DNA from: a virus
Length of the DNA stretch: 22,552 nucleotides
Direction: 5' to 3' (one strand)
Virus record (IMG/VR): IMGVR_UViG_3300006641_000198
Span: 1-22,552 of that record
A program made the translations under genes and the position numbers. The stretch's first letter is position 1. Every line of letters begins with the position of its first letter. Of the stretch, positions 1 through 14,164 are shown in pieces. A model generated the notes under the pieces. The model was not told the DNA's origin and searched no databases. It saw nothing but the letters and a program-made list of their open reading frames with translations.

Positions 1-149
1 ATAGTCTTTTCTCCATTATCAATATCGGTTATTATTTCGACTTGCTGATGAAATCCGTATTTATTAATCTGACTTTCTAATTCAGATAATAGTCTGTTTA
101 AAAAATGACTGCGTGAATTTAGAGAACAGATTAGAACGCTTAATATCAT
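1..149 (-). CDS. glycosyltransferase, family 2-like (partial, cut by window edge)
   Basis: The first 49 codons are visible, starting at the ATG at 149-147, which overlaps the stop of the FkbM-like gene as ATGA. The N-terminus reads MILSVLICSLNSRSHFLNRL, followed by LLSELESQI and, further on, VEIITDIDNGEKT. A beta strand (SVLICSLNSR), a helix with LESQI, then a strand leading to a D-x-D-like stretch is the start of a GT-A fold of family 2 glycosyltransferases. The gene at 2005-2574 begins the same way (LSILIPSIPER, then KLESQI), so the two may be paralogues. The active site and C-terminus lie outside the window, so substrate and activity cannot be judged. It is the most distal visible gene of the late operon. 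Confidence 0.7.
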   Translation of the reverse strand, partial: MILSVLICSLNSRSHFLNRLLSELESQINKYGFHQQVEIITDIDNGEKT

Positions 150-745
150 TTACCATAAATTAAATTCTCTCCGTTACTATAAATGTGTCTGAATTGCTGC
201 CTGTGGAATAGCCCGTGATATTTTTCTTTTTCTTTTCCATTATATTCAACACATACCAAACGACATCCTACTTCATTTAAAGATATTTGTGAAAGCACCT
301 GAAAGTCCATTTCCTCAACGTCTATATTAATAAAGTCGAATTTTTTATAAATGGTTTCTTGTAAAAGAGTATTAAAAGTAATTATCCGGCTTGTAACGTT
401 TTTATATTTTGTACCGTAACCTTTCGCCCACTTTTCAGCATGACTTGCAACAGTAGTTCCTATTGCATCACCACCGCTATCAAAGAATGATATTTCACCA
501 TCATAAGTTCCTACACAGGTCTGAATTATTTGAATTTCTTTATCCTGTTCAAAGTATTTTTTAAGTACGTTGTAATTCATTTCAGCAGGCTCTATTAAAA
601 CTCCTTTCCAGCCCTTGCCATATAACGCTCTGGTATTACTGAATACTTCAGGGTCATAAGCTCCAATGTCTAAGTAAGTGCCACGTTCCTGATCTTTAAA
701 GTAGTTTAAAATAATTTCTTCTTCGTTGTTTTGTGAGTATTTCAT
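146..745 (-). CDS. FkbM family SAM-dependent methyltransferase
   Basis: This 199-aa protein has the motifs of the FkbM methyltransferases, which transfer a methyl group from S-adenosylmethionine, often to a sugar hydroxyl. Motif I is YLDIGAYDP (residues 24-32), followed by GVLIEP (48-53), whose acidic residue would bind the SAM ribose. The family signature DFINIDVEEMDFQVL is at 137-151. The length is near the usual FkbM core, so it looks complete. The start at 745 overlaps the stop of the TylF-like gene by 4 bp, and its own stop overlaps the next start by 4 bp, so translation is probably coupled. The neighbours are glycosyltransferases, so a sugar substrate is likely, but this is inferred from context. 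Presence in a phage structural operon is unusual. Confidence 0.85.
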   Translation of the reverse strand: MKYSQNNEEEIILNYFKDQERGTYLDIGAYDPEVFSNTRALYGKGWKGVLIEPAEMNYNVLKKYFEQDKEIQIIQTCVGTYDGEISFFDSGGDAIGTTVASHAEKWAKGYGTKYKNVTSRIITFNTLLQETIYKKFDFINIDVEEMDFQVLSQISLNEVGCRLVCVEYNGKEKEKYHGLFHRQQFRHIYSNGENLIYGK

Positions 746-1371
746 ATTATTAAGTCTTTGTTTTTCTGAAAGTAAATTACTGTTTTTGTGTTTTGGACTA
801 TCTTAAATTTGAAGTTGCCGAAGTATTCGTGAACTGCTTTAAAACAACCCGTTAATCCGTAATCGTCAATAATCACCCAGCCCCCATCAACTACTTTGGG
901 ATAAAGATATTCTAAACACACCTTTGTAGAATTATATAAGTCCCCGTCTAATCTAAGCAAAGATATTTTTTCAATCTTATTTAATGTTAATGTTTCTTCA
1001 AACCACCCTTGCACATATTCAAAGTTTTCATCATTTACATTCCATTCAGCAAAGTGTTGTTTAACTTGCTCAATACTTACAGCTGTTATTCCTGAAGTCG
1101 TAAGTAAGTACCCGTTTACATCGTGTGAAATTACTCCAATACCCGGCTGAGTAGTGTCATATTTGCTTGCTAATGGAATACCCTCAAAGCTATCAAATAG
1201 CCATATCTTTTTTGACGAACACGCTCTATACATTGCCGCTACCTGACTACCGGCTGCAACACCACATTCTACAAAGTCCCCGTCTAAATCACAACATAAT
1301 TGAGCAAGGTCGAAACTGTTTTGTAGTGTTTCGTAATTTGAATACGCTCTTTGTGCTAAGTCTTTAAGCAA
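742..1371 (-). CDS. TylF/macrocin O-methyltransferase family protein
   Basis: This 209-aa protein matches the TylF (macrocin O-methyltransferase) family, SAM- and metal-dependent enzymes that methylate hydroxyls on sugars. The SAM-binding segment GDFVECGVAAGSQVA is at residues 31-45, followed by WLFDSFEGIP at 57-66. The metal-binding and catalytic acids are probably D142 and D144 in RLDGDLYNST and the pair D169-D170 in GGWVIIDDYG. The usual closing element GCFKAVHEYF follows at 175-184. It appears full length. Its start overlaps the end of the upstream glycosyltransferase-like gene by 8 bp and its end overlaps the FkbM-like gene by 4 bp. Two different sugar-methyltransferase families side by side suggest methylated sugars on a glycan, an inference from neighbourhood. 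Confidence 0.87.
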   Translation of the reverse strand: MLKDLAQRAYSNYETLQNSFDLAQLCCDLDGDFVECGVAAGSQVAAMYRACSSKKIWLFDSFEGIPLASKYDTTQPGIGVISHDVNGYLLTTSGITAVSIEQVKQHFAEWNVNDENFEYVQGWFEETLTLNKIEKISLLRLDGDLYNSTKVCLEYLYPKVVDGGWVIIDDYGLTGCFKAVHEYFGNFKFKIVQNTKTVIYFQKNKDLII

Positions 1372-2008
1372 GTCCTTGAAGTTTTATAGTTACCGTTTCG
1401 TTATTTACAGGCGTGTCAGGCGCACCGTATTGTAAGTAGTTTTGACCATACTGTAACTTCATTCCTAATCGGTGTGCAATTATACTTCCTGCCTGCATAT
1501 CGTGTCTATGATTACTCCAATCCCCTTTAAACACTCCTGCATTTGCAGCATCTAACCACTGATTTAAAAACTTTATTCCAATTTCAGATTTTAAGTTAAG
1601 ACCAAAACACCCTGCTGTAAACATAGGAATAGTCATTGCTTCTTCGCGTGTCAATCCAAAGTATTGAAGCGAATTATCATTTGCCCATGTTCCAGTCCAA
1701 TGCCCTGCTTCGTGCATGAAATATCCGTCCGCTTCAACTATGTCTAAAATAGGCTGAATGTCTTTAATTAAATAACATGAAGCATCCATCCAAAAAACCA
1801 CATCGTAATCTTTACTCATTGCCTGTAAAAAAGCATACGGTTTAAACGCATAAGGATTTACAGAATGTTTAGGGCAGCCGTTAATCTGAAACTCATTCTG
1901 CCAGCTCATTACGGGTATCTTTGGGCTATATCTTTGAACGGATTGTTTCAGTCGTTCCTGACCTTTTAAATAGCGTCCTGTTGATAGATTTATAATTACT
2001 GCGTTCAT
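1364..2008 (-). CDS. putative glycosyltransferase (GT-A-like, DxS motif)
   Basis: This 214-aa protein looks like a small GT-A-fold sugar transferase. It begins with a strand-forming segment AVIINLSTGRYLKGQERLKQ, then NPYAFKPYAFLQAM (51-64) and VVFWMDASCYL (70-80), where the D-A-S triplet takes the place of the DxD motif that binds the metal and nucleotide sugar. A later segment, MFTAGCFGLNLKS, resembles the acceptor-side strand of nucleotide-diphospho-sugar transferases, and HRHDMQAGSIIAHRLGM (167-183) looks like the C-terminal acidic element. I do not recognise a specific family. The DxS form may still bind metal. It sits between a GT2 gene (4-bp overlap) and the TylF-like gene (8-bp overlap), which supports a glycan role. 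Confidence 0.65.
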   Translation of the reverse strand: MNAVIINLSTGRYLKGQERLKQSVQRYSPKIPVMSWQNEFQINGCPKHSVNPYAFKPYAFLQAMSKDYDVVFWMDASCYLIKDIQPILDIVEADGYFMHEAGHWTGTWANDNSLQYFGLTREEAMTIPMFTAGCFGLNLKSEIGIKFLNQWLDAANAGVFKGDWSNHRHDMQAGSIIAHRLGMKLQYGQNYLQYGAPDTPVNNETVTIKLQGLA

Positions 2009-2574
2009 ACTGCCCTTGTTAAATTACTGTCAAATCTGTAAAAGTGCAACACCTTATTAATATGTGTTTCAGTTAAAGCGTTTTTAGCACAACATTCAGA
2101 AAAGAAACTATCCTCACCATAGTTTATGTTAGGGAAAAAACATCCTGCGCAAATACTCCTTTTCCATGCGCAAACGTGAAAAGGTTTTCTTTTAATATCT
2201 GCCCAAAAACCGTCTATCTTGTGCGCTTCTTCATTCTCATTCTTTAATCTAAATTCTACCTGAAAAGGCTCATCATTTATAAACGACATTTGCCTGAACG
2301 TAATCACATCTTTTCCTTCATCAGTTGCTTTTAAAATCTCTGAAACATAAAGCGGTGAAATATCGTCATCGTCATCTACAAAAGCAAAATATTTACCTTG
2401 TGCCAATTCAAATAAGTGCTGTCTTTTTTCCCCGATAGTCATATTCATATTATCAATCAAACAAAGTATTTCTACTTCCTTTCGGTCTAATATCTGACTT
2501 TCTAACTTAGCAACTAAATCGGCTGTTTTATTGAGCCTTTCTGGTATTGATGGAATAAGTATGCTTAATTTCAT
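2005..2574 (-). CDS. glycosyltransferase family 2 protein
   Basis: This 189-aa protein is a compact family 2 glycosyltransferase. The opening strand MKLSILIPSIPERL is typical. The segment GEKRQHLFELAQGKYFAFVD (48-67) followed by a run of aspartates (67-71) and ISPLYV is the nucleotide-sugar and metal site: the stretch before it, with K50 and R51, matches the new-conversation helix of GT2 enzymes and the D-run holds DxD. NYGEDSFFSE at 151-160 carries the E-D pair expected for the catalytic base. The protein is at the short end of GT2 length and lacks a membrane segment, so it would act in the cytoplasm on a soluble or protein acceptor. It has 4-bp overlaps on both sides. Donor and acceptor are unknown. 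Confidence 0.85.
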   Translation of the reverse strand: MKLSILIPSIPERLNKTADLVAKLESQILDRKEVEILCLIDNMNMTIGEKRQHLFELAQGKYFAFVDDDDDISPLYVSEILKATDEGKDVITFRQMSFINDEPFQVEFRLKNENEEAHKIDGFWADIKRKPFHVCAWKRSICAGCFFPNINYGEDSFFSECCAKNALTETHINKVLHFYRFDSNLTRAV

Positions 2575-3227
2575 TTAAAATCGTTTCTTTTTCGTTGTTC
2601 GTAAATGCGTTTATCTACGTTATAAAAACTTTCGTTGCGTGTCATTAATTGGTCGTATTGTTCGCCTTTCCATACCGGGTGTTCGTGTTTGAAAAGTATT
2701 AAATCAGATTTATATTCTTTTCCTAACATTCTGCTAACTTGCATAAATTCGTCATCACAAAAAAGAGAATTATAAGAGGGGTGGTAAATGTAGTTAAATC
2801 GGTTGTAGTAAGTGCGACCCATTATACACATCGTATTAAGTTGAGTATATCCGTCTGGGTAATATAATACCCCATCTAAATCAGCGAAATTTCGCTGCAT
2901 ATCTTTTCGTATTTGTTCGTCCCATCCTTGCACCTGACAAATCATATCGTCTGAAGCTAATACTAAAACATCCCAATCTTTAACTAAATGAATATCTCTG
3001 TTACACGCTTCAATCTTGTTTCGGCTTATTCCCTGAATTACTATTACATTCTTATGTAATGCACGGGCTTTTTCAATGACTTCTTTTGTCATTGTTGGGT
3101 CGTTCAAATCAATAGAAATAAGGTAAATAATATCTTCATTATTATTTGCTTTACTAACGTAATCCGATAGTACACTTATAAACTTTGCAGGGCGCGAACG
3201 GGTAGGAAATTTAACAAGTATTTTCAT
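2571..3227 (-). CDS. putative glycosyltransferase, GT2-like
   Basis: This 218-aa protein starts with MKILVKFPTRSRPAKF, a GT2-like first strand with an R-rich loop. A central segment, SRNKIEACNRDI (68-79), resembles the N-x-x-R helix that precedes the DxD in GT2 enzymes. It is followed by WDVLVLASDDMICQVQGWDE (85-104), with D93-D94 in the position of the metal-binding acids. CDDEFMQVSRMLG at 157-169 would be the catalytic acidic region, and FKHEHPVW (179-186) the C-terminal histidine element. The order of motifs supports a GT-A fold; divergence makes the exact family uncertain. It overlaps its upstream neighbour and the following GT2 gene by 4 bp each. With 2005-2574 and 1364-2008 it forms a block of three consecutive probable sugar transferases. 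Confidence 0.7.
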   Translation of the reverse strand: MKILVKFPTRSRPAKFISVLSDYVSKANNNEDIIYLISIDLNDPTMTKEVIEKARALHKNVIVIQGISRNKIEACNRDIHLVKDWDVLVLASDDMICQVQGWDEQIRKDMQRNFADLDGVLYYPDGYTQLNTMCIMGRTYYNRFNYIYHPSYNSLFCDDEFMQVSRMLGKEYKSDLILFKHEHPVWKGEQYDQLMTRNESFYNVDKRIYEQRKRNDFK

Positions 3228-3433
3228 CCGCCTGTTGCTAAAATAATATTTCTGTCATGCGATAATTCAAACTCATAATGCCATGTTTCGTGTGTTTCAA
3301 AAACAACTCTATACATTAATGACTTTTCTAATATCTGAATTGAGGTTACTATTCTTTTCTTTTGGTCTGGGTCTGTTACCAAATAAGCGAAATCACCGAT
3401 TGAAAACCTGTTATCTATTTTCACAGATTGCAA
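3224..3433 (-). CDS. small beta-rich protein of unknown function
   Basis: This is a 69-aa protein with no family that I recognise. The visible pattern is a short beta barrel: FSIGDFAYLVTDPDQKKRIV, then MYRVVFETHETWHYEFELSH, alternating hydrophobic strands with glycine-aspartate turns, reminiscent of SH3-like or KOW-like small barrels. It lies directly between the MuF-like head gene (9-bp gap) and the glycosyltransferase block (4-bp overlap with 2571-3227), so it is co-transcribed with both. It has no signal peptide and no cysteine. A head-tail joining or regulatory role is possible, but nothing in the sequence decides it. Confidence 0.6.
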   Translation of the reverse strand: MQSVKIDNRFSIGDFAYLVTDPDQKKRIVTSIQILEKSLMYRVVFETHETWHYEFELSHDRNIILATGG

Positions 3434-3442
3434 ATATAAAAA

Positions 3443-4333
3443 CTATTTTTCAAACTTTGCACGTAATTCTTTTGGAACTCGCTCTTTTGATACGGCAGGC
3501 ATTAAGTGCCTGCAATTATAACCACCGCGCAATGTTTGTAAATTATTCTCATTCGTTCCTTCAATCATTCCTTGCGGTAGTCCTGTCTTTTGATATATTT
3601 CGCATTGTTTGCCGTCTATTTCGCCTTTAACAATGGTGCTTAATTCGGACTTATGAATAAAATGCTTTTTAACCATTCTATCACAGAAACATCGACTATC
3701 TCTAACAAGTCCGCCTACATATTCAAACCATTCTAACCCTAAATCGTCTGTTACAATCTGTTGATACGTTGCTGAATATTGATGTAATGTATCTGTTACT
3801 ACTTGTTTACTCCAACGGGCTAAACGTCCGTCCGTTTCGGGTGAACTAACTATAAAGTCACGCAATGATTTATTAAGATCATAAAAAGAAGATGAACCGT
3901 AAATATCATTCTTAATAATATCCAACATTCCGTCAACCACGTTTGTATTTATTCCGCTACCTTTAAGGCTTTCGGAAAGCTCTAACATAGTAACAGCCTT
4001 TACTTCCTTTAATACTTCTGGAGCTGTGAAATCTTCGACCATCTTCGAAAAGTAGTTTTCATTAGCATCGGTAATAACTACTAAATTCTTTTCTAAATTC
4101 TCAAAAGCTAAATTGTATTTTCCCGTGTTGAGTATCTTTTGGATTTCTTTTCTAAGGTCTTTTAATAGCCTTAAATTTTTAACAGTAGGTCGTATCTTTC
4201 CGCCCTTTGTATCTAACTTGCCGATTAGTATTTCTACCTTATTAGCTATGTCCTTTTCAATAAATGGGAGTGCTTGCTCAAATTCATCTATTGAGCCGTC
4301 AACTGCTTTTATTAGCTTTTCTAAGTCTGTCAT
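3443..4333 (-). CDS. phage minor head protein (MuF/SPP1 gp7-like head morphogenesis protein)
   Basis: This 296-aa protein resembles the minor head proteins that sit next to the portal in Mu (gpF) and SPP1 (gp7) and help capsid assembly or DNA ejection. The diagnostic part is the C-terminus: RDSRCFCDRM (211-220), then about 50 residues later GGYNCRHLMPAV (270-281), the paired Cys / G-x-x-C-R-H arrangement of the MuF domain. The first 200 residues are helical and charged. It begins 1 bp after the portal stop, the standard portal-MuF neighbourhood, which supports the call independently. No toxin or enzyme domain is fused to it, unlike many polymorphic MuF proteins. Confidence 0.8.
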   Translation of the reverse strand: MTDLEKLIKAVDGSIDEFEQALPFIEKDIANKVEILIGKLDTKGGKIRPTVKNLRLLKDLRKEIQKILNTGKYNLAFENLEKNLVVITDANENYFSKMVEDFTAPEVLKEVKAVTMLELSESLKGSGINTNVVDGMLDIIKNDIYGSSSFYDLNKSLRDFIVSSPETDGRLARWSKQVVTDTLHQYSATYQQIVTDDLGLEWFEYVGGLVRDSRCFCDRMVKKHFIHKSELSTIVKGEIDGKQCEIYQKTGLPQGMIEGTNENNLQTLRGGYNCRHLMPAVSKERVPKELRAKFEK

Positions 4334-6262
4334 TTATGGATTTCCGTAAACCTTATTCCCACTTTCACTTAAATAATAATAACCACCTTTTTCTCCTTTT
4401 AACCATTCTTTTTGGCTGTTGGCTGTTGGCTGTTGGCTGTTGGCTGTTGTTGATTTCGTTTCAAATGTAGGGTTTCCATTATTATCTCTTACTACTACTT
4501 TGCCTTCTGCTTTTGGCATCTTTTCAGGAACGTATGAGTATAGTATTTCAATTTGTTTATCTGTGTCTAAATCTAAGAAATTAGCGTTTTCACGCACCGC
4601 TTTATCAATAAACGGAATAATATAAACCGATAATATTACATCTTCTTTTTTAGCCGTTCCACTTAGCATTAGGTTTTCTTTTTCTTCATTACTCATTCCT
4701 GCAAATGGGTCTAACTCTTTAGCTGCAACAAAACGTTTTCTTAAATCGGGTCTACCTGCAAATTTCTTATTTATGTACTCAATCTCCAATGCGTTGATTA
4801 CATTTAAATCGGCATCACTATCAACCAATGATTTTATTTCCGCTGTCATTCCCGCCAACGTTTCAATATCAAAGTTTAACGGAATAGAAATATCGGGGGT
4901 CATTTCTTCCTGTTGCTCGTAAGATAAACGTGGATAACGCTCCATTGCTATCATTTCGTTAATCTCACTAATATTGTGAGCCGCTGAACGTGCAATTTCA
5001 GAAAGGAAGTTATTTATTTCATCCCTGTCAATAGACTTAGCCTCACCTGAAATATTTAGCGGTGTTTGGTCTAAGAAGTTCAGATTAATAGCAGACAAAG
5101 CATCGTATTTATGAGCCTTAATCCTCTCATCTTGCAGCTTTATTATAGTAGTGTCTTTTTCAATATATCCAGCCGGTGGTGTTGGTATTGCCTGCTGCCC
5201 TGCATCTTGCGGCTTTACTGAAATATCTTCATATGGACTATGTTTTATTCGTCCGTTTCCTTTGCACTCTCCACAAATTACATTCTTGCCTAATTTACGC
5301 ACTTGCCCTGTTCCTGCACACGCTCCGCATTCCTGCCCTGAGAAATACCACATAGTCGGATAAAGATGTAACACAACAGCCGCATCTAAGTCTGAACTTT
5401 CACGGGCTGCTTGGTCTAAACTTGGTAACATCGGTGAAACATAACTATCGTAAATCGGTGTTATTCCATGCTGTTCACGATATTTGCCGCCTATTCTCCA
5501 ACACGCTAAATCGTCCGTTGGTAGTGGTGCAAATATCTCAGGCTCATCGTAAGTTTTATCTTGTTTTACAAATATCTTAGTCAAAGAACCTTTCTGAATT
5601 AACCAATAGACATGACCTTCTTTTTCTTTTCCTTCTTTGTCGAAATATTTAAACTTTTCGTTTGAATGAATAAAGGCGTGTTCATCGTAAACGTAATCTA
5701 ATACTGCCTCAGAAGGAATAAATATTGCAATCGGTTTTTTATATTCGTTTTCCGGGTATTTGTCTAATTCTTCTTTGTTGAGATAATACTCATAAGGCAT
5801 TACAAAAATAAGTCCGTTAGGGTCTTTTAATTGACATTCTAATCCTGTATTGAAATACCAGTTTTCAACTGACCCATAAACAGGATAATCTTCTGTAACG
5901 TAACTCTCAAATGAATATTCATCAGGCACTATTGATGTCTTTTTGGTATCAGCAAAGTTTATTTTCCAGCCTAATGAACGCGGTATTTTCTTCATGGTAG
6001 CAACTACCTTTGAGCAAACCTGCTTAGTTATCGGGGTATATTGCTTCTTACGATGTTCCCAAATATTTATTCCTTCGCTTGGTCTGCGTTCCTCAATCAG
6101 TATCTTAAAATACTTATTCTCTTTTTCATAAGGATAAATAATATTCTTAACTCCGTCAAAGTGGAATTTAAGGTGTGAAGAAATATCGACCGTGTTATCA
6201 TAAAAGAAATGCTTTTGGTCATTCTTAATGTAGTAGTCGAAATAGTTTTTATCAAAAATCAT
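4334..6262 (-). CDS. phage portal protein with DnaJ-type zinc motif
   Basis: This 642-aa protein is the probable portal, the ring at the capsid vertex through which DNA enters and leaves. The call rests on length, its place immediately before the MuF-like gene, and a helical, charged middle (SAINLNFLDQTPLNISGEAK, then an Asp/Glu-rich helix) like portal stem and wing regions. Two CxxCxGxG units (C312/C315 with G317 and G319; C330/C333 with G335 and G337) can form one zinc site of the DnaJ rubredoxin-like type. This looks like an insertion in the portal fold. Near the C-terminus a 7-bp tandem repeat encodes TANSQQP cycles, followed by about 25 residues (EWLKGEKGGYYYLSESGNKV and more) that look like a separate tail peptide. 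Confidence 0.75.
   Translation of the reverse strand: MIFDKNYFDYYIKNDQKHFFYDNTVDISSHLKFHFDGVKNIIYPYEKENKYFKILIEERRPSEGINIWEHRKKQYTPITKQVCSKVVATMKKIPRSLGWKINFADTKKTSIVPDEYSFESYVTEDYPVYGSVENWYFNTGLECQLKDPNGLIFVMPYEYYLNKEELDKYPENEYKKPIAIFIPSEAVLDYVYDEHAFIHSNEKFKYFDKEGKEKEGHVYWLIQKGSLTKIFVKQDKTYDEPEIFAPLPTDDLACWRIGGKYREQHGITPIYDSYVSPMLPSLDQAARESSDLDAAVVLHLYPTMWYFSGQECGACAGTGQVRKLGKNVICGECKGNGRIKHSPYEDISVKPQDAGQQAIPTPPAGYIEKDTTIIKLQDERIKAHKYDALSAINLNFLDQTPLNISGEAKSIDRDEINNFLSEIARSAAHNISEINEMIAMERYPRLSYEQQEEMTPDISIPLNFDIETLAGMTAEIKSLVDSDADLNVINALEIEYINKKFAGRPDLRKRFVAAKELDPFAGMSNEEKENLMLSGTAKKEDVILSVYIIPFIDKAVRENANFLDLDTDKQIEILYSYVPEKMPKAEGKVVVRDNNGNPTFETKSTTANSQQPTANSQKEWLKGEKGGYYYLSESGNKVYGNP
4414..4448 (+). 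repeat. perfect heptanucleotide tandem repeat, 5 x GGCTGTT
   Basis: Five exact copies of GGCTGTT (AACAGCC on the coding strand) lie inside the portal reading frame, about 27 codons before its stop. Because 7 is not a multiple of 3 and the unit has no stop in any frame, all three frames read the same seven-residue cycle (T-A-N-S-Q-Q-P). Gain or loss of one unit would leave the repeat open but change the frame after it. One alternative frame stops about 5 codons downstream and the other about 16, removing the native C-terminal tail. Confidence 0.95.
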
Positions 6263-6264
6263 TG

Positions 6265-7155
6265 CTATAAATTTGCACGTTCTTTTACAAAGGTTCTTTT
6301 ATCTCTAAAAGGTGACACGGGTAAACCAAATTGACCTGCATAAAATTGAGCCAGTTGATTATATACGTCTTTCATTCTGTTGTTCGCTGCTATATGTCCG
6401 CCTGCTGAATATCCTATGTAGTTTTCAGTTCTTTGTGAACCGTATAGTTGAATAGTATTGTAGCTTTTCTTTTCAGCACTTTCCCAATAGATAGGTCTGT
6501 AACCTTTTTCGTGTGGGGCTAAACCATTTAAAAGCATTGCTATACTCAAAGGCAACTCATCGGGAATACCACCGCCAAAACGCTTATAATTGACTTTCAT
6601 ATTATCGTAAATCTTTAAAGCGTCATTAAATAGTTTTTTATTCTCTTTGGTCTTTTTAAAGTAGATGAACTCAGAAGAAATATAATAGAAAGTTCCACCT
6701 GTAACCGAATATTCTTTTTTTATTTCCTGCAAATTAGCCCACATATCCGGCTGAGTGTCTGTTGAAACATCGTAGTCACTTCTATTTTGAATAGTGAAAT
6801 TTACATCTTGCAACTCATTAAATATGTCATTTACATTACGTCCTTTCGGAAACATAATCACATCAGCATCTATAAACAAAGTTTCGTCAAAAGGAGTGAG
6901 TGAGTAAGCGTATAATTTCGCTTTATAAGGTTGATATACTCCGTTTGAATAAAAGCATTCGTTTGGTATTATGTGAAGTTCGCTGAATAACTTATAATGT
7001 ACATCTCTAAAATGTCCTATTGCGGTGTTATCGTGTAATAAGGCAATCTTAATATCAGGGCAACTGAATTTTATTGACGCTGCTAAATTAGCCGCATACA
7101 TACCATAATACGGGTGTCCGTATGCCATTATCAATATGCCTTTTGTTTTACTCAT
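6265..7155 (-). CDS. putative glycosyltransferase (GT8-like, DAD motif)
   Basis: This 296-aa protein has the layout of a GT-A glycosyltransferase with a GT8-like flavour. ILIMAYGHPYYGMYAANLAA (7-26) forms the first strand and helix. IKIALLHDN follows, then YQPYKAKLYAYSLTPFDETL (75-94), the K-x-x-x-Y element seen before the metal site, and FIDADVIMF (95-103) with D96 and D98 as DxD. VTGGTFYYISSEFIYFKK resembles the acceptor strand, and the G-G-G-I-P-D-E-L-P segment the catalytic loop. It is unusual in sitting between a tail/virion gene and the portal gene, 3.0 kb away from the other sugar genes, with a TAATG junction upstream. It could modify a virion protein made from the same transcript. Donor unknown. 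Confidence 0.72.
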   Translation of the reverse strand: MSKTKGILIMAYGHPYYGMYAANLAASIKFSCPDIKIALLHDNTAIGHFRDVHYKLFSELHIIPNECFYSNGVYQPYKAKLYAYSLTPFDETLFIDADVIMFPKGRNVNDIFNELQDVNFTIQNRSDYDVSTDTQPDMWANLQEIKKEYSVTGGTFYYISSEFIYFKKTKENKKLFNDALKIYDNMKVNYKRFGGGIPDELPLSIAMLLNGLAPHEKGYRPIYWESAEKKSYNTIQLYGSQRTENYIGYSAGGHIAANNRMKDVYNQLAQFYAGQFGLPVSPFRDKRTFVKERANL

Positions 7156-7670
7156 TACAATTCAATTATTCTGTAAAGAACATAAACTTTAATATCTGAA
7201 TTTCCTGCTGTTGGGTTACCTGTTTTAACTTTTACTTGTAAAGCCTTATTTTCAATTATTTGAGTGTCAGAAATACCTATTACTGGTATGCTTCCTAATA
7301 TTCCTATCTGCGAAGATGTGGCGTCTAATAATCCGCTTTCAGCCTGTGAAATTGTTGCTGTATCTGTTATTGCCTGCAATGTTAAATTAGTATCATAAGC
7401 AACTGAATTATAAGTTATAGAGCAAGATGCGCTTATTACTTGTATAGCATACCCAGCTCCCGGTGCTGCCACAATCTCCAAAGGTGTCGCATTTAAAGTT
7501 AATACGCTTGCCGTTGGTATGCTTAATGAAGCCTGTTGAACGTTACCAAAAGCCTCTTTAATAGATGAAAATGGTAATTGATATTCTGTCCCGTTTTGTC
7601 CGAAATAAAATACATCGCTGTCTGCTATTGTGAGTGAACCACCCGATGGAAATTGAAATAATGTTGGCAT
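7155..7670 (-). CDS. probable small virion structural protein
   Basis: This 171-aa protein is rich in Ser, Thr, Ala and beta-branched residues, starts with MPTLFQFPSGGSLTIADSDV and has a middle segment TASVLTLNATPLEIVAAPGA (53-72) of the kind seen in beta-sandwich phage structural proteins. A C-terminal strand, ALQVKVKTGNPTAGNSDIKV, closes it. I read it as a virion component, perhaps a tail-tip, decoration or fibre-associated protein; the exact role is not readable. It lies 1 bp after the stop of the 539-aa tail protein and 1 bp overlaps the glycosyltransferase start, so all three are translated together. It has no signal peptide or cysteine-rich motif beyond one Cys. Confidence 0.6.
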   Translation of the reverse strand: MPTLFQFPSGGSLTIADSDVFYFGQNGTEYQLPFSSIKEAFGNVQQASLSIPTASVLTLNATPLEIVAAPGAGYAIQVISASCSITYNSVAYDTNLTLQAITDTATISQAESGLLDATSSQIGILGSIPVIGISDTQIIENKALQVKVKTGNPTAGNSDIKVYVLYRIIEL

Positions 7671-7671
7671 T

Positions 7672-9291
7672 TTATAATCTACTTGAAAGTGTTACTTGTA
7701 ATCCTGTTGATGTAAATAAGTGTCCGCCTGAAGCTGTTTCAACTTCCTGCGCTGTTAACGAACCGACCTCGATATTATCGGAGCAATTCTTGTTCTGCAA
7801 AAGTAAAGTTTTCTTTTGATATTCTATATCAACGTCATATACGTTAAAGAACTTGTTAGGCTTTGGCTCTGGAAATTCATCTTCTGCTGCAAATACTTCT
7901 ACCGTGTCAATGTAAACATGATCAGCACCGATAGTCAAAGATAAGAAGTCAATGATGTGTTCCGGCTGTCTTAATACTTTTAGCCTCCAATTTTTATCAC
8001 CTGTAAAATAATCGACACGCTTAAAACCCTGACTTGTTTTAGTCTTTATTCGTTCCTGGGGATAACCCGATAATATTGCCTTACTTTCTATTCTTGCACG
8101 CGGAATAAATCCTGTGTTTACAAAACCCATTCCAAAACTATTTTCATTGCATACAAGTGAAATCATGTGAGTGCATGATGTTGTTTCTGAATAAACAAAT
8201 TTGTTTGAAGTGTAATCGGCTTGCAGTTGGCTGTCAATTACTGTTACGCTTAAATCTGTTACCCAAAAGTTAGACGGGTTTACAGTTGATGCGAAATTCA
8301 TACTAAATGAAGTTCCACCGCTTACTATTGTTTCCGTGTAAGTTCCGTTTGCGCTTCTTGAAGCACCCAAAGTTCCACCTGCATTTATCTGAAACGTTGC
8401 GTTTCCTGCGTGTCCTGCTAATGTATAAGTAAATGTGTATGATTTACCACTACACAATTCACCGATGCTTGTTAGACTACCCGTTCCTACAACTGAAGTA
8501 GAGGCGTATAACCAAACGTTATTCAGCAAAGTAAATGTAGTTGTAATGTTATTGTTTACTGCCTTAGTCCAAAAGTTAGTATTATAAAATGTTTGGTCTG
8601 GTATGTAAAGCTGCGAACAGGTATTAGTACAATCGTCTGCAACTCCAAAATAATAACAACCATAAGAAAGTCCCAATGCGTCCCAATCAATCGTAACTGT
8701 TAAATAAGGTGCTTTTACGTTAAAGTAACCATCTGAATAATCTAATATTGCTGCTTGAGTGCCGTCTAAATGATAGATAATTACTTTTAGATAATTAACA
8801 TTGTAAACCAAGCATGAAACAAATACAATATCACCCTGAAAATCAGAAGATGCTACAAAGTTTAGTCCGCTGCCAAAGATTAGTCCGTCTTGATTAAATG
8901 TATAAGTACCATTTGCTGAAACAGTCCCCTTATTTGTTAGTCCGCATTTAACCTGACACGATCCGCTTGTTACATTCTGAAAAGTTACTGTTATTTGATA
9001 AAAAGCACTTGCCGTAAATGGAACGTTTTGCGTTAATGTTCCTGCCGTTCCTGCTGTGTGACGTGCTATGTTACCTGCGATATTCCAGTTACTTCCTAAT
9101 GTCCAATTTGAACTACTTGTAAATGTCCCGTTGGTTACTATGTCAGGCGAACTTGAACACGGCTCAATTAATAGCTGAAACTGCGTATTATCACCTGACT
9201 GAACAGGCATTGAATATCCTGAAGTATTAAGTAAACAAGTATCTATCTGTTCGTCAAAAACTACAGGTTGAAAAGGTATGTAATTAGCCAC
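7672..9291 (-). CDS. tail protein with two glycan-binding-like beta domains
   Basis: This 539-aa protein is probably part of the tail tip. Two jelly-roll-like domains interrupt a common scaffold. The first (about residues 50-165) begins VTNGTFTSSSNWTLGSNWNI and ends near the FQGDIVFVSCLVYNV strand. The second (about 236-352) begins FYNTNFWTKAV and ends FWVTDLSVTVI. Both follow the order expected for carbohydrate-binding-module-like domains: N-terminal W/N-rich strand, T-rich strand leading into YQITVTF or YTFTYTL, then an N-G-T-Y strand, then a closing strand naming a position. The scaffold resumes at 353-539 (Cys-rich, then GFVNTGFIPRARIESKAILS). Cysteines are plentiful. It starts inside the stop of the 638-aa gene (8-bp overlap). 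Receptor binding is an inference. Confidence 0.65.
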   Translation of the reverse strand: MANYIPFQPVVFDEQIDTCLLNTSGYSMPVQSGDNTQFQLLIEPCSSSPDIVTNGTFTSSSNWTLGSNWNIAGNIARHTAGTAGTLTQNVPFTASAFYQITVTFQNVTSGSCQVKCGLTNKGTVSANGTYTFNQDGLIFGSGLNFVASSDFQGDIVFVSCLVYNVNYLKVIIYHLDGTQAAILDYSDGYFNVKAPYLTVTIDWDALGLSYGCYYFGVADDCTNTCSQLYIPDQTFYNTNFWTKAVNNNITTTFTLLNNVWLYASTSVVGTGSLTSIGELCSGKSYTFTYTLAGHAGNATFQINAGGTLGASRSANGTYTETIVSGGTSFSMNFASTVNPSNFWVTDLSVTVIDSQLQADYTSNKFVYSETTSCTHMISLVCNENSFGMGFVNTGFIPRARIESKAILSGYPQERIKTKTSQGFKRVDYFTGDKNWRLKVLRQPEHIIDFLSLTIGADHVYIDTVEVFAAEDEFPEPKPNKFFNVYDVDIEYQKKTLLLQNKNCSDNIEVGSLTAQEVETASGGHLFTSTGLQVTLSSRL

Positions 9292-11200: not shown

Positions 11201-13425
11201 TAGTAACCGCCTCTCTTTTTATTTGAACCACTTATTACCCTTACTAAGGTTTCAGTTAATTCCCTATCTTGCTTTATACCTTTCTTCATTAGTTTTTCTA
11301 ATGGGTAGGTATCAAAATCCTGCGAACTACCTAAAACCTTTATTAGTCTATTCTCGAATGATTTATTTTGTTGTTGGGTTAATCCTTGCTTCAATAACTT
11401 AGGCGAAATAACGCCTTTATTTAACATTTCAAGGTTATCAAATCCTATTTTTCGGGCAGCCCGTTTGTTAATAATAAACTCATCTCCCTCAAGTTCTGCA
11501 TGAACACCGCCCTCTTTATGGCTTTTACCTTTTACTTTACCGCCCTTTTCAAATTGTGGTATCGGTGTTGCTGAGATAATTGCAATTTCAGCTATACCTA
11601 AAGCGGCTGCGATTGCAGCACCAACAACCCCAGCATCTTCAAACCCTTTTAAAGTAGCTAAAGCTGCACTAATTGTAGCCTTTATAATAGCCGCCTCTTT
11701 ATTCTTTTCTGCTTGGTCTTTTAATATTGCTTTTCTTTGAGAATTATATTGAGATTGAGTTATTTTTTCAGCATCATACTCCTGTTGAATTAGTTGTAAT
11801 TTTGCATCTGTTGACTGTTGTTCTAATGACATTTGATAATCTAAAGCCATTGTAATTAATTGCGCTGTTGCATAAATTAACTGTTGCTCAATTTCTTTTT
11901 TTCTTTCCGCTTCATCTTCTGCCCTTTTTATTCTTTCGTCACTTGCCGCCTTATCCTTTTCGTCTTGTTCGCTGTGCAATTTATCAATGTGCTTCATTAA
12001 TTCCTTTTCATTGTCAGCAATAGCATCAGCAGTTTTCTTTTCTTCGTCTATTCTTTTTTGCGCTGCCTGCTTTTGCCCCTCTGCCATATTTTGAAGCATT
12101 TCGGTAGCAACAGGGTCTTCCAACTCCTTCTTCTGTTCCTTTATCTTTTCGGTGGTCTTGCCGAATATTGCGTCTAACTCTTTCTGAACTGCTACAAGGG
12201 CTGCATAATCATCTTTATTTTCCTGTACTGTTTTGCCATTCTTTTCTAATTCATCAGATAACCTCTTTTTCTCCGCTGTTAAAAAAGCAATATTTCTTAT
12301 TTGATTTTCAGTTGCCTTATTTTCTTCTGTTGTAGATTGAATATTCTTTTTTGCCTGCTCATCAATGTATTTTTGATTTTCAGCAACCAAATCAGCTATT
12401 GATTTTGTTTTCTTTTCGGCAATACCTAATTTATCTGACAACCAATTAAAACCTTCTGCGTTTTTCTCTATAATCCAATTTAAAGCCCTAAACGGTTCTG
12501 ATAAAGCCTTAATAATATTCTTTGTAAGGAAGGTAATTACATTAAATCTATCTGCCTCATCGCTTGCCATTCCAAACTTTCTTGCAAGTTCTGAAATCTC
12601 TGTGTTTGTATTACTTATTTCATTGGCTATGTCTTTAAATATAGGTGCTGCACCAATTAAAATACTATTCCCCAACTCTTCCTGTAATTCGCCAAACTGA
12701 TTTTGTAAAGCCTTTATTTTACCAGAGGTAGTTTCTAATTCGGCTTCTGCAAATCCTTTGTATTTTTCAGCAACTAAGTCAACCGCTGCACCATTTTCTA
12801 ATTGAGCCTGAGTTAGCTTTTTAAAGTTGCTATCCATTTTACCCAAACGCCCTATGCTCCCCTCATAAGTAGCATCTAACTTTTCAACGCTTGATTGTAA
12901 ACTTTCACCTGTTACTGCGCTTAGATTTGTAGCTGCACGAATAACTTTATTTATTTGTTCTTCTGTTCTTCCTTGTGTGGCAAGGAATGTTTGGGCAGAT
13001 ATTATACTATCGTCATCATATACGGTAGTCTTTTGATATTCGGAAGCCGATTTAGTAAGCCTATCAAATGCAGCCTGATTTTTGTTTAGTGCGTTAAATA
13101 ATAATTTATTCCCTCTTTCGGCTTCTATTGCAGCGTTTATTGATGCTTTCCCAAACTGTATAACTGACTGGAGGGCAAATGCACCGGCAATTACAGAACC
13201 TAAATTTTTAAACTGATTGCCTATATTTGTAGTAACAGATGAAGCTGTACTTTCGGTTGCTTTTAGGCTTTTCCTTGTTTCTTCTTGTTGTTTCTGAAAC
13301 TGTGCATTATTCTTTTTGAACTGAGCAGCATTCTTAGCATCAACAGCACCCAACTTTTCAAGGTCATTAATAGTCGGCTGTAAATTCTCTTTGCCACTTA
13401 CTTCAATTACTACTTTCTCAACCAT
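11200..13425 (-). CDS. tail tape measure protein
   Basis: This 741-aa protein is a tape measure, which sets tail length and is threaded inside the tail tube. An N-terminal region with Q- and K-rich helices precedes a hydrophobic segment (SVIAGAFALQSVIQFGKASI) typical of tape measures. A long charged coiled coil (roughly 340-540) runs through repeated K/E/Q-rich stretches, followed by Ala-rich hydrophobic helices (AAIIKATISAALATLKGFED, then VVGAAIAAALGIAEIAIIS). It ends with KGKSHKEGGVHAELEGDEFI and INKRAARKIGF, an ending seen in many tape measures. By the rule of about 1.5 angstrom per residue the tail would be near 110 nm. Its start overlaps the stop of the frameshift segment (TAATG). No lytic enzyme domain is seen in it. 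Confidence 0.85.
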   Translation of the reverse strand: MVEKVVIEVSGKENLQPTINDLEKLGAVDAKNAAQFKKNNAQFQKQQEETRKSLKATESTASSVTTNIGNQFKNLGSVIAGAFALQSVIQFGKASINAAIEAERGNKLLFNALNKNQAAFDRLTKSASEYQKTTVYDDDSIISAQTFLATQGRTEEQINKVIRAATNLSAVTGESLQSSVEKLDATYEGSIGRLGKMDSNFKKLTQAQLENGAAVDLVAEKYKGFAEAELETTSGKIKALQNQFGELQEELGNSILIGAAPIFKDIANEISNTNTEISELARKFGMASDEADRFNVITFLTKNIIKALSEPFRALNWIIEKNAEGFNWLSDKLGIAEKKTKSIADLVAENQKYIDEQAKKNIQSTTEENKATENQIRNIAFLTAEKKRLSDELEKNGKTVQENKDDYAALVAVQKELDAIFGKTTEKIKEQKKELEDPVATEMLQNMAEGQKQAAQKRIDEEKKTADAIADNEKELMKHIDKLHSEQDEKDKAASDERIKRAEDEAERKKEIEQQLIYATAQLITMALDYQMSLEQQSTDAKLQLIQQEYDAEKITQSQYNSQRKAILKDQAEKNKEAAIIKATISAALATLKGFEDAGVVGAAIAAALGIAEIAIISATPIPQFEKGGKVKGKSHKEGGVHAELEGDEFIINKRAARKIGFDNLEMLNKGVISPKLLKQGLTQQQNKSFENRLIKVLGSSQDFDTYPLEKLMKKGIKQDRELTETLVRVISGSNKKRGGY

Positions 13426-13730
13426 TAGTCAGGCTTTTTACTCTGTATTTCTATCTCCTCACGTAACAAATGCCACTCAATAAATGTGAATTTACTAAAT
13501 GGTATTCCTAATGGCTTGCTGAAGTCAGCAACTCTAATGTTTTGAATAAATCTCTGTTCACTCCTGTTTTGGAAATGGACTGCGATAGGCTCTTTATCTG
13601 TTCCTTTGTCAACGCTTCCCCCACTTGCATATAAATTCTCAAATCTGCTTCTGACATATTCAGATAGGGCAACAGTTTGTTTATAGGCGTATTCAAAAAA
13701 AAAGCAGCTACGTCCTTTTCCTTTTGCCAA
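13425..13730 (-). CDS. frameshifted C-terminal segment of tail assembly chaperone (gpT-like)
   Basis: This frame is open from 13730 (only a TTG there) to 13425 and lies in the -1 frame relative to the longer chaperone gene, which it overlaps by 223 bases before running 83 bases beyond that gene's stop. It ends in TAATG with the tape measure start, so something should translate it. The C-terminal part reads FSKFTFIEWHLLREEIEIQS. This matches the gpG/gpGT organisation of lambda-like tails, where -1 slippage makes a longer fusion. If slippage occurs at the T9 run, the fusion would be about 246 aa (156 from the first frame plus 90 here). The true slip point could be later in the overlap. Confidence 0.55.
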   Translation of the reverse strand: MAKGKGRSCFFFEYAYKQTVALSEYVRSRFENLYASGGSVDKGTDKEPIAVHFQNRSEQRFIQNIRVADFSKPLGIPFSKFTFIEWHLLREEIEIQSKKPD

Positions 13731-14164
13731 AGTTTTATCTTTTCTATTCCATAACGATAGTCATAATCATACGGGTTTTCAGTTTCATCAAAGAATACTA
13801 CTGAGGCTAATTTCCAAACGGTATCACTTGCAATTACCATGTCTAAACGTTCCTTTAATTGGTCGTTTAATTTCTTCATGGCAAAGATGTCTATCTTTTC
13901 AGATGTCAATATTGCTTCTGTTGCTTCAACGTGCAACTTTAACATTTCTTTTGTGGTGCGCATCTGAGCTTCTTCATATACTTCCATTGCCCGGAACGCT
14001 CTCGCATGGCATAGCTGAAATATGTCCTGAAACTGATAATACTTTACCCCTCCACTTTCAAAAGCAAATATTATAGGATGCAAAGTTTCAACAGCAAACT
14101 TAGGCTTAGTGTCTTTTTTTATTAACTCTTTAAAATTTGCTTTAACCTGTGAAAACACTTCCAT
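13508..14164 (-). CDS. tail assembly chaperone (gpG-like)
   Basis: This 218-aa protein is read as a tail assembly chaperone, which holds the tape measure while the tail tube polymerises. The call is by position (just before the tape measure) and by the second overlapping frame, not by sequence motif. It begins MEVFSQVKANFKELIKKDTK and contains a helical middle (AMEVYEEAQMRTTKEMLKLH and VEATEAILTSEKIDIFAMKK). ERLDMVIASDTVWKLASVVF at 105-124 and LNMSEADLRIYMQVGEALTK further on keep the helical character up to the stop. The first 23 bases overlap the upstream small gene. A run of nine T (13695-13703) falls at codons 154-157. Alternatives are a head-tail or other tail assembly factor. Confidence 0.65.
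   Translation of the reverse strand: MEVFSQVKANFKELIKKDTKPKFAVETLHPIIFAFESGGVKYYQFQDIFQLCHARAFRAMEVYEEAQMRTTKEMLKLHVEATEAILTSEKIDIFAMKKLNDQLKERLDMVIASDTVWKLASVVFFDETENPYDYDYRYGIEKIKLWQKEKDVAAFFLNTPINKLLPYLNMSEADLRIYMQVGEALTKEQIKSLSQSISKTGVNRDLFKTLELLTSASH
13697..13703 (-). promoter_or_regulatory. candidate -1 ribosomal frameshift site, T TTT TTT
   Basis: On the minus strand nine T in a row occupy 13703 to 13695. In the chaperone frame the heptamer reads T TTT TTT, so both Phe codons (155 and 156) keep perfect pairing after a -1 slip into the frame that continues to the tape measure start. The run could also cause transcriptional slippage. Other stretches of the overlap (for example one with GTG GGG GAA) do not allow re-pairing of both codons. 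Confidence 0.5.

Follow-up and report, generated by a model that had tools for sequence, protein, structure and literature searches.

A portal-coupled glycosyltransferase gene, gtE, and an accessory cassette of further glycosyltransferases and methyltransferases probably form a two-layer module that decorates phage particles with a methylated, strain-variable glycan, a reading to which we give a probability of roughly 0.6. Both layers lie in the window, that is, the whole 22,552-bp stretch of DNA analysed here, a virus record that is probably a fragment. The source phage is uncultured and probably one of Bacteroidota, a host assignment that derives from one MAG. The adjacency of gtE to the portal gene, its likeness to glycogenin, its invariant DxD motif, the constraint on the genes and the recurrent linkage of cassettes to head genes point towards a role in the virion, as far as sequence can indicate one. 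A preliminary description of this DNA had proposed that the phage decorates its own virion or alters the host envelope; the linked glycosyltransferase/methyltransferase cassette in a structural block on which that proposal was built is borne out, whereas the strongest link to the virion proved to be gtE and not the cassette.

The late block lies on the minus strand and begins with TerS, TerL (PHROG 3717, E 5.9e-60), small genes, a tail chaperone pair and the tape measure gene, followed by o638, o539, o171, gtE, the portal gene, a MuF-like gene, orf69 and gtD-gtC-gtB-tylF-fkbM-gtA; recombination genes (Erf, exonuclease and NinG) occupy the plus strand. The genes o218 and o101 overlap in the -1 frame (13425-14164) with a T9 run at 13695-13703 inside the overlap, the layout of a G/GT programmed frameshift in tail-assembly chaperones; several relatives keep o101. 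The five cassette genes and a sixth cut by the edge were all found where the preliminary description had placed them, on the minus strand, and the overlaps that it gave as 4-8 bp measure 4, 4, 8, 4 and 4 bp from gtD to gtA. Upstream of them, gtE, portal, MuF-like gene and orf69 are co-directional with gaps of 0-9 bp, the MuF-orf69 gap being 9 bp and the orf69/gtD overlap 4 bp. No terminator-like site was detected on the minus strand of positions 1-7700, and a sigma-70 promoter scan gave no signal clearly above shuffles. The proposed single unit with portal and head genes is upheld in direction and in the lack of a terminator-like site, but its "head genes" reduce to the portal and the MuF-like protein, no capsid gene being found inside the window.

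The portal gene (4334..6262, minus; 642 aa) was assigned through PHROG 7376 (portal, E 1.6e-9), and a search with it against isolated phages returned no match. Near its 3' end (4412-4449, minus), a perfect 7-bp tandem repeat, TTGGCTG x5.4, encodes repeats of the peptide ANSQQPT, and a gain or loss of copies would frameshift the portal C-terminus. The MuF-like minor head protein (3443..4333, minus) matched no Pfam or PHROG family and is named for its position and conservation beside the portal, which its gene follows in nearly all relatives. Between it and the cassette, orf69 (3224..3433, minus) encodes a small protein with relatives only as near-identical copies.

Directly upstream of the portal gene throughout the clade lies gtE (6265..7155, minus; 296 aa), which encodes a glycogenin/GT8-like glycosyltransferase. 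This fifth glycosyltransferase-like gene had been overlooked in the earlier count of four, all of which (gtA-gtD) were matched by Pfam, PHROG or fold. The AlphaFold model of gtE (pLDDT 94.1) retrieved glycogenin first in Foldseek (E 3e-9), and its profile matched glycogenin at 1e-5; D96/D98 (DxD) are invariant in 50 sequences, and D199-E200 form a conserved acidic motif. The GT-A fold, the DxD motif and the profile similarity together place gtE among the GT8/glycogenin-like enzymes. An alignment scan gave 166 relatives, and in 78 of the best 80, which were retained, a portal gene lies at most 60 bp downstream; the remaining two loci either end or show no portal. Across all loci, gtE stands immediately upstream of 63 of 74 distinct portals, a figure biased upward because the sample was retrieved with gtE itself. 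Among phages retrieved with TerL, gtE is beside the portal in seven (window included) and not in four. The coupling of glycosyltransferase genes to structural genes that is expected of phage virion glycosylation is thus found here. No close gtE relatives were detected in isolated phages, where the matches were weak (one cyanophage, beside tail-fibre genes, and one huge phage), and a search of an open-access library found nothing relevant on portal-adjacent glycosyltransferases.

The cassette opens with gtD (2571..3227, minus; 218 aa), a GT-A-like glycosyltransferase (PHROG 14945, 2.5e-11) with an invariant SDDM motif. Next to it, gtC (2005..2574, minus; 189 aa) is a GT2 glycosyltransferase, scoring 28.4 bits against the PF00535 cut-off of 23.3 (E 1.9e-6; PHROG 8858, 7.5e-33) and carrying DDDD and ED motifs. 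The GT2-like gtA (1..149, minus) is cut by the window edge after its first 49 aa; the stub matches PHROG 14775 (glycosyltransferase, E 0.0024) and is GT2 by homology, aligning to a full-length 186-aa homologue in a relative (L064) with DDDD and ED motifs. Predicted structure gives gtB (1364..2008, minus; 214 aa) the GT-A fold of a glycosyltransferase, possibly GT6/GT8-like: its AlphaFold model (pLDDT 96.9) matched BoGT6a best (4ayj/4cj8, E 2e-7), at a TM of about 0.6 and an rmsd above 5, with many other GT-A matches. BoGT6a is a metal-independent bacterial enzyme. D75, R168 and D170 of gtB are invariant in 50 sequences; neither Pfam nor PHROG matched gtB, and its 50 homologues had no Pfam match. 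Profile searches recognised TylF, FkbM and gtC in Pfam and gtD and gtA in PHROG, and left gtB to be recognised by fold only.

The two methyltransferase assignments were confirmed well above family cut-offs. The product of tylF (742..1371, minus; TTG start, 209 aa) scores 136.4 bits against 23 for PF05711 (E 1.3e-39), and its alignment to the solved O-methyltransferases 5i10, 4cdz, NovP (2wk1) and MycF retains LDGD and IIDDY; that of fkbM (146..745, minus; 199 aa) scores 50.3 bits against 22.7 for PF05050 (E 3.8e-13), with DIGA and IDxE (IDVE) kept in 6 phage relatives, and its profile found no match in the PDB. No relative of tylF was detected in viral contigs or isolated phages at the sensitivities used, marking it as the most divergent or a recently acquired part of the cassette. 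FkbM and TylF enzymes methylate small molecules and sugars, and on this family basis we infer that the methyl groups are placed on sugars. Conserved acidic motifs occur in all glycosyltransferase families examined (gtC/gtA, gtD, gtB and gtE), and metal-binding/catalytic motifs are conserved. Transmembrane segments were absent from the window's cassette proteins and from the recognised glycosyltransferase and methyltransferase genes of 14 relatives, and no flippase, polymerase, lipid-carrier transferase or membrane protein was recognised among the cassette enzymes of the window or relatives, in agreement with the earlier statement that the cassette holds no membrane transporter or polymerase.

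Gene maps of the relatives come from basic ORF calling and from profiles seeded with proteins of the window, the E-values of the collection scans marking candidates only. A TerL search retrieved a 99.99% identical contig, viral contigs at greater distance and, in a Bacteroidetes MAG, a relative at 72%. In that MAG, one contig (L011) carries the window's block through MuF, and a second (L064) carries gtC-gtB-fkbM-gtA together with an ORF of 86 aa and the opening part of a head-region gene of 290 aa; we infer that the two represent one phage. This nearest relative has no tylF, its gtB and fkbM overlapping directly, and other relatives show the same gene order with variations. Of 38 complete spans from the portal to the 290/370-aa head gene, 11 hold a same-strand cassette (6 after MuF and 5 before gtE), 2 hold antisense FkbM/TylF-containing blocks and 25 have no cassette. 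The methylation cassette is accessory, and most gtE-carrying relatives are without it. Outside the clade, 65 distinct gtB loci were compared: 52 have FkbM or TylF on the same strand, and 45 have gtD. Some gtB-bearing blocks lie directly before TerL, and in one locus (L174) the cassette sits between a head maturation protease (PHROG 94) and a portal (PHROG 11226) of other PHROG families. The co-occurrence of cassette and portal that the preliminary description had suggested checking is real and extends to an unrelated head module, but it is neither constant nor fixed in position.

Sister cassettes also encode GDP-mannose 4,6-dehydratase, a second epimerase, GT25, GT7 and GT47 enzymes and further methyltransferases. 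The dehydratase lies in the portal-side cassettes of L231 (5754-7866, with the second epimerase) and L197 (8622-9587), which suggests a phage-supplied GDP-deoxyhexose. Antisense accessory blocks occur between MuF and the head genes in L097 (11848-16720), where GT7 galactosyltransferase-like and GT47 exostosin-like genes stand beside FkbM, in L104 (11829-16741) and in L010, with FkbM and TylF. In L053, portal and MuF are separated by a gene (5471-7093) for a 540-aa virion structural protein of PHROG 1645, and a further gene in its cassette (2278-2754) is for an HNH endonuclease. The 370-aa gene that follows the insertion site (for example, L055 9041-10156) is conserved in 22 aligned phages and presumably encodes the clade's major capsid protein; it matched nothing in PHROGs or the PDB sequence set. 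Two candidate generalizations were rejected: gtE is not obligatory with the cassette, which occurs in at least L229 and L261 with no gtE beside the portal, and the gtD of Streptomyces phages (22-25% identity, outside the structural block in the one examined) was not accepted as the same system.

Because the genes are 64-73% identical to those of the nearest relative, with little non-synonymous change, they are not chance reading frames. Synonymous sites are near saturation, whereas gtB, fkbM and gtE show only about 0.2 non-synonymous changes per site, a level shared by the portal and TerL genes. The gtD tree clusters sequences mostly by insertion position; this favours a cassette passed down in place and seldom moved over a freely hopping element, a notion that was discarded.

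In the proposed mechanism, the soluble, portal-coupled gtE would attach a sugar, either the first of a chain or the only one, to a hydroxyl group on a virion protein or on gtE, an O-glycosylation in the cytosol timed to head/tail production. The genes gtD-gtC-gtB-(tylF)-fkbM-gtA would be read from the same late mRNA; gtA-gtD would extend the glycan with host nucleotide sugars, FkbM and TylF would cap it by O-methylating sugar residues, and the product would presumably shield the particle or alter adsorption. Gene anatomy, families, folds, motif conservation, synteny and constraint are the observed basis of this scheme; what the enzymes do, with which sugar and on which acceptor, in what order they act, where the methyl groups go and what the phage gains are conjectural. 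A virion protein would be the simplest substrate because the cassette has no transmembrane segment, no lipid-carrier enzyme was recognised and the acceptor would be co-produced. Candidate acceptors are the portal, a capsid protein encoded outside the window and two tail-region proteins singled out by their Ser/Thr-rich composition: o539 (7672..9291, minus; 21%), conserved upstream of gtE-portal, and o171 (7155..7670, minus; 20.5%), which sits between o539 and gtE in the window and in L011. Against a virion acceptor, LgtC, a GT8 member, acts on lipo-oligosaccharide, and cytosolic glycosyltransferases working on lipid-linked envelope sugars would equally be free of membrane segments. The pairing of gtE as initiator with the cassette as extender is also not strict, given that most gtE carriers have no cassette and that at least two loci show the reverse. 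In one set of bS21-coding phages, an FkbM gene is among the most transcribed, together with the capsid gene (PMC9723584).

A serious though less probable alternative is that, late in infection, the cassette instead alters an envelope glycan of the host, such as LPS, O-antigen, capsule or S-layer glycan, for instance preventing progeny from binding debris or excluding competitors, with the head-gene linkage reflecting late expression only. GT2, GT25, GT7, GT47 and FkbM enzymes are frequent in envelope gene clusters, GT25 of the sister cassettes is an LPS biosynthesis family found there with GT7, GT47 and GDP-sugar enzymes, and the gtC-family profile is akin both to wall teichoic acid transferases and to the adhesin-glycosylating GalT1. 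An envelope role, however, sits poorly with cassettes in which neither membrane proteins nor enzymes for flipping, polymerisation or lipid-carrier transfer were recognised, and it offers no obvious reason for gtE-portal coupling to persist in divergent phages. Improbable in our estimation is a split in which gtE is a part of head/portal assembly, structural or self-glycosylating, and the cassette an unrelated passenger in a tolerated MuF-capsid insertion site: gtE is core and the cassette accessory, the site also hosts antisense accessory genes and some cassettes occur without gtE, yet glycan genes in either orientation make up many of the inserts at this site in the clade, and the cassette lies immediately before gtE in at least five phages. 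Hypermodification of phage DNA with glycosylated bases against restriction is highly implausible, for although DNA glycosylation by phage glycosyltransferases is on record (as cited in PMC12619734) and gtD weakly matches a long PHROG family annotated as DNA methyltransferase (1.3e-5), the 22.5-kb window, itself a fragment, shows no recognisable enzyme for base hydroxymethylation or related nucleotide chemistry, the genes are grouped with late structural and not replication genes, and FkbM and TylF are small-molecule/sugar methyltransferases.

If virion decoration is correct, a widespread uncultured phage group makes glycosylation part of particle building, with a glycosyltransferase as a near-constant portal neighbour and a variable methylating cassette. 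Particle glycans of tailed phages are documented in few systems. The modelling of environmental phage capsids (adsorption, shielding and recognition) would then change, and "auxiliary" FkbM and glycosyltransferase genes in virome surveys would become candidate virion genes and not host-metabolism genes. A bolder and more doubtful extension is that gtE is a core assembly gene across a large uncultured clade, its exchangeable cassettes yielding phage-specific methylated virion glycans as a counterpart of surface-antigen variation.

Among known systems, glycogenin (GT8) is the closest to gtE in both fold and profile, with DxD conserved in both; identity over the structural match is about 13-15%, and gtE differs in being portal-linked. 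Glycogenin glucosylates protein and modifies itself. Serotype conversion by GtrABC likewise depends on phage-carried glycosyltransferases, but it employs a membrane flippase and lipid-carrier enzymes (a bactoprenol glycosyltransferase), whereas no transmembrane segment and no match to such families was found in the window's cassette; GtrABC genes lie near the integrase, and the window's genes lie in the late structural block instead. Mycobacteriophage virion glycosylation was reportedly described by Freeman et al. in 2023. These are also tailed phages with their own glycosyltransferases, and decoration of their capsid and tail tube is documented (cited in PMC12619734); compared by description and not by sequence, they differ in their actinobacterial host, and no FkbM/TylF cassette is mentioned for them in work citing that study. 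In PBCV-1, A064R combines two rhamnosyltransferase domains with a sugar methyltransferase and builds the capsid glycan, which sits on the major capsid protein (PMC7019647). That N-glycan pathway resembles the window's system in its virus-coded soluble glycosyltransferases without signal peptides and its sugar methyltransferase (PMC7019647), a likeness of description and not of homology; PBCV-1 is an algal giant virus with a fused GT-GT-MT protein and an N-linked glycan, and has no portal-coupled glycogenin-like glycosyltransferase. Phage virion glycosylation as such is known, but a portal-coupled glycosyltransferase core joined to an exchangeable methylating cassette looks like a new form of it.
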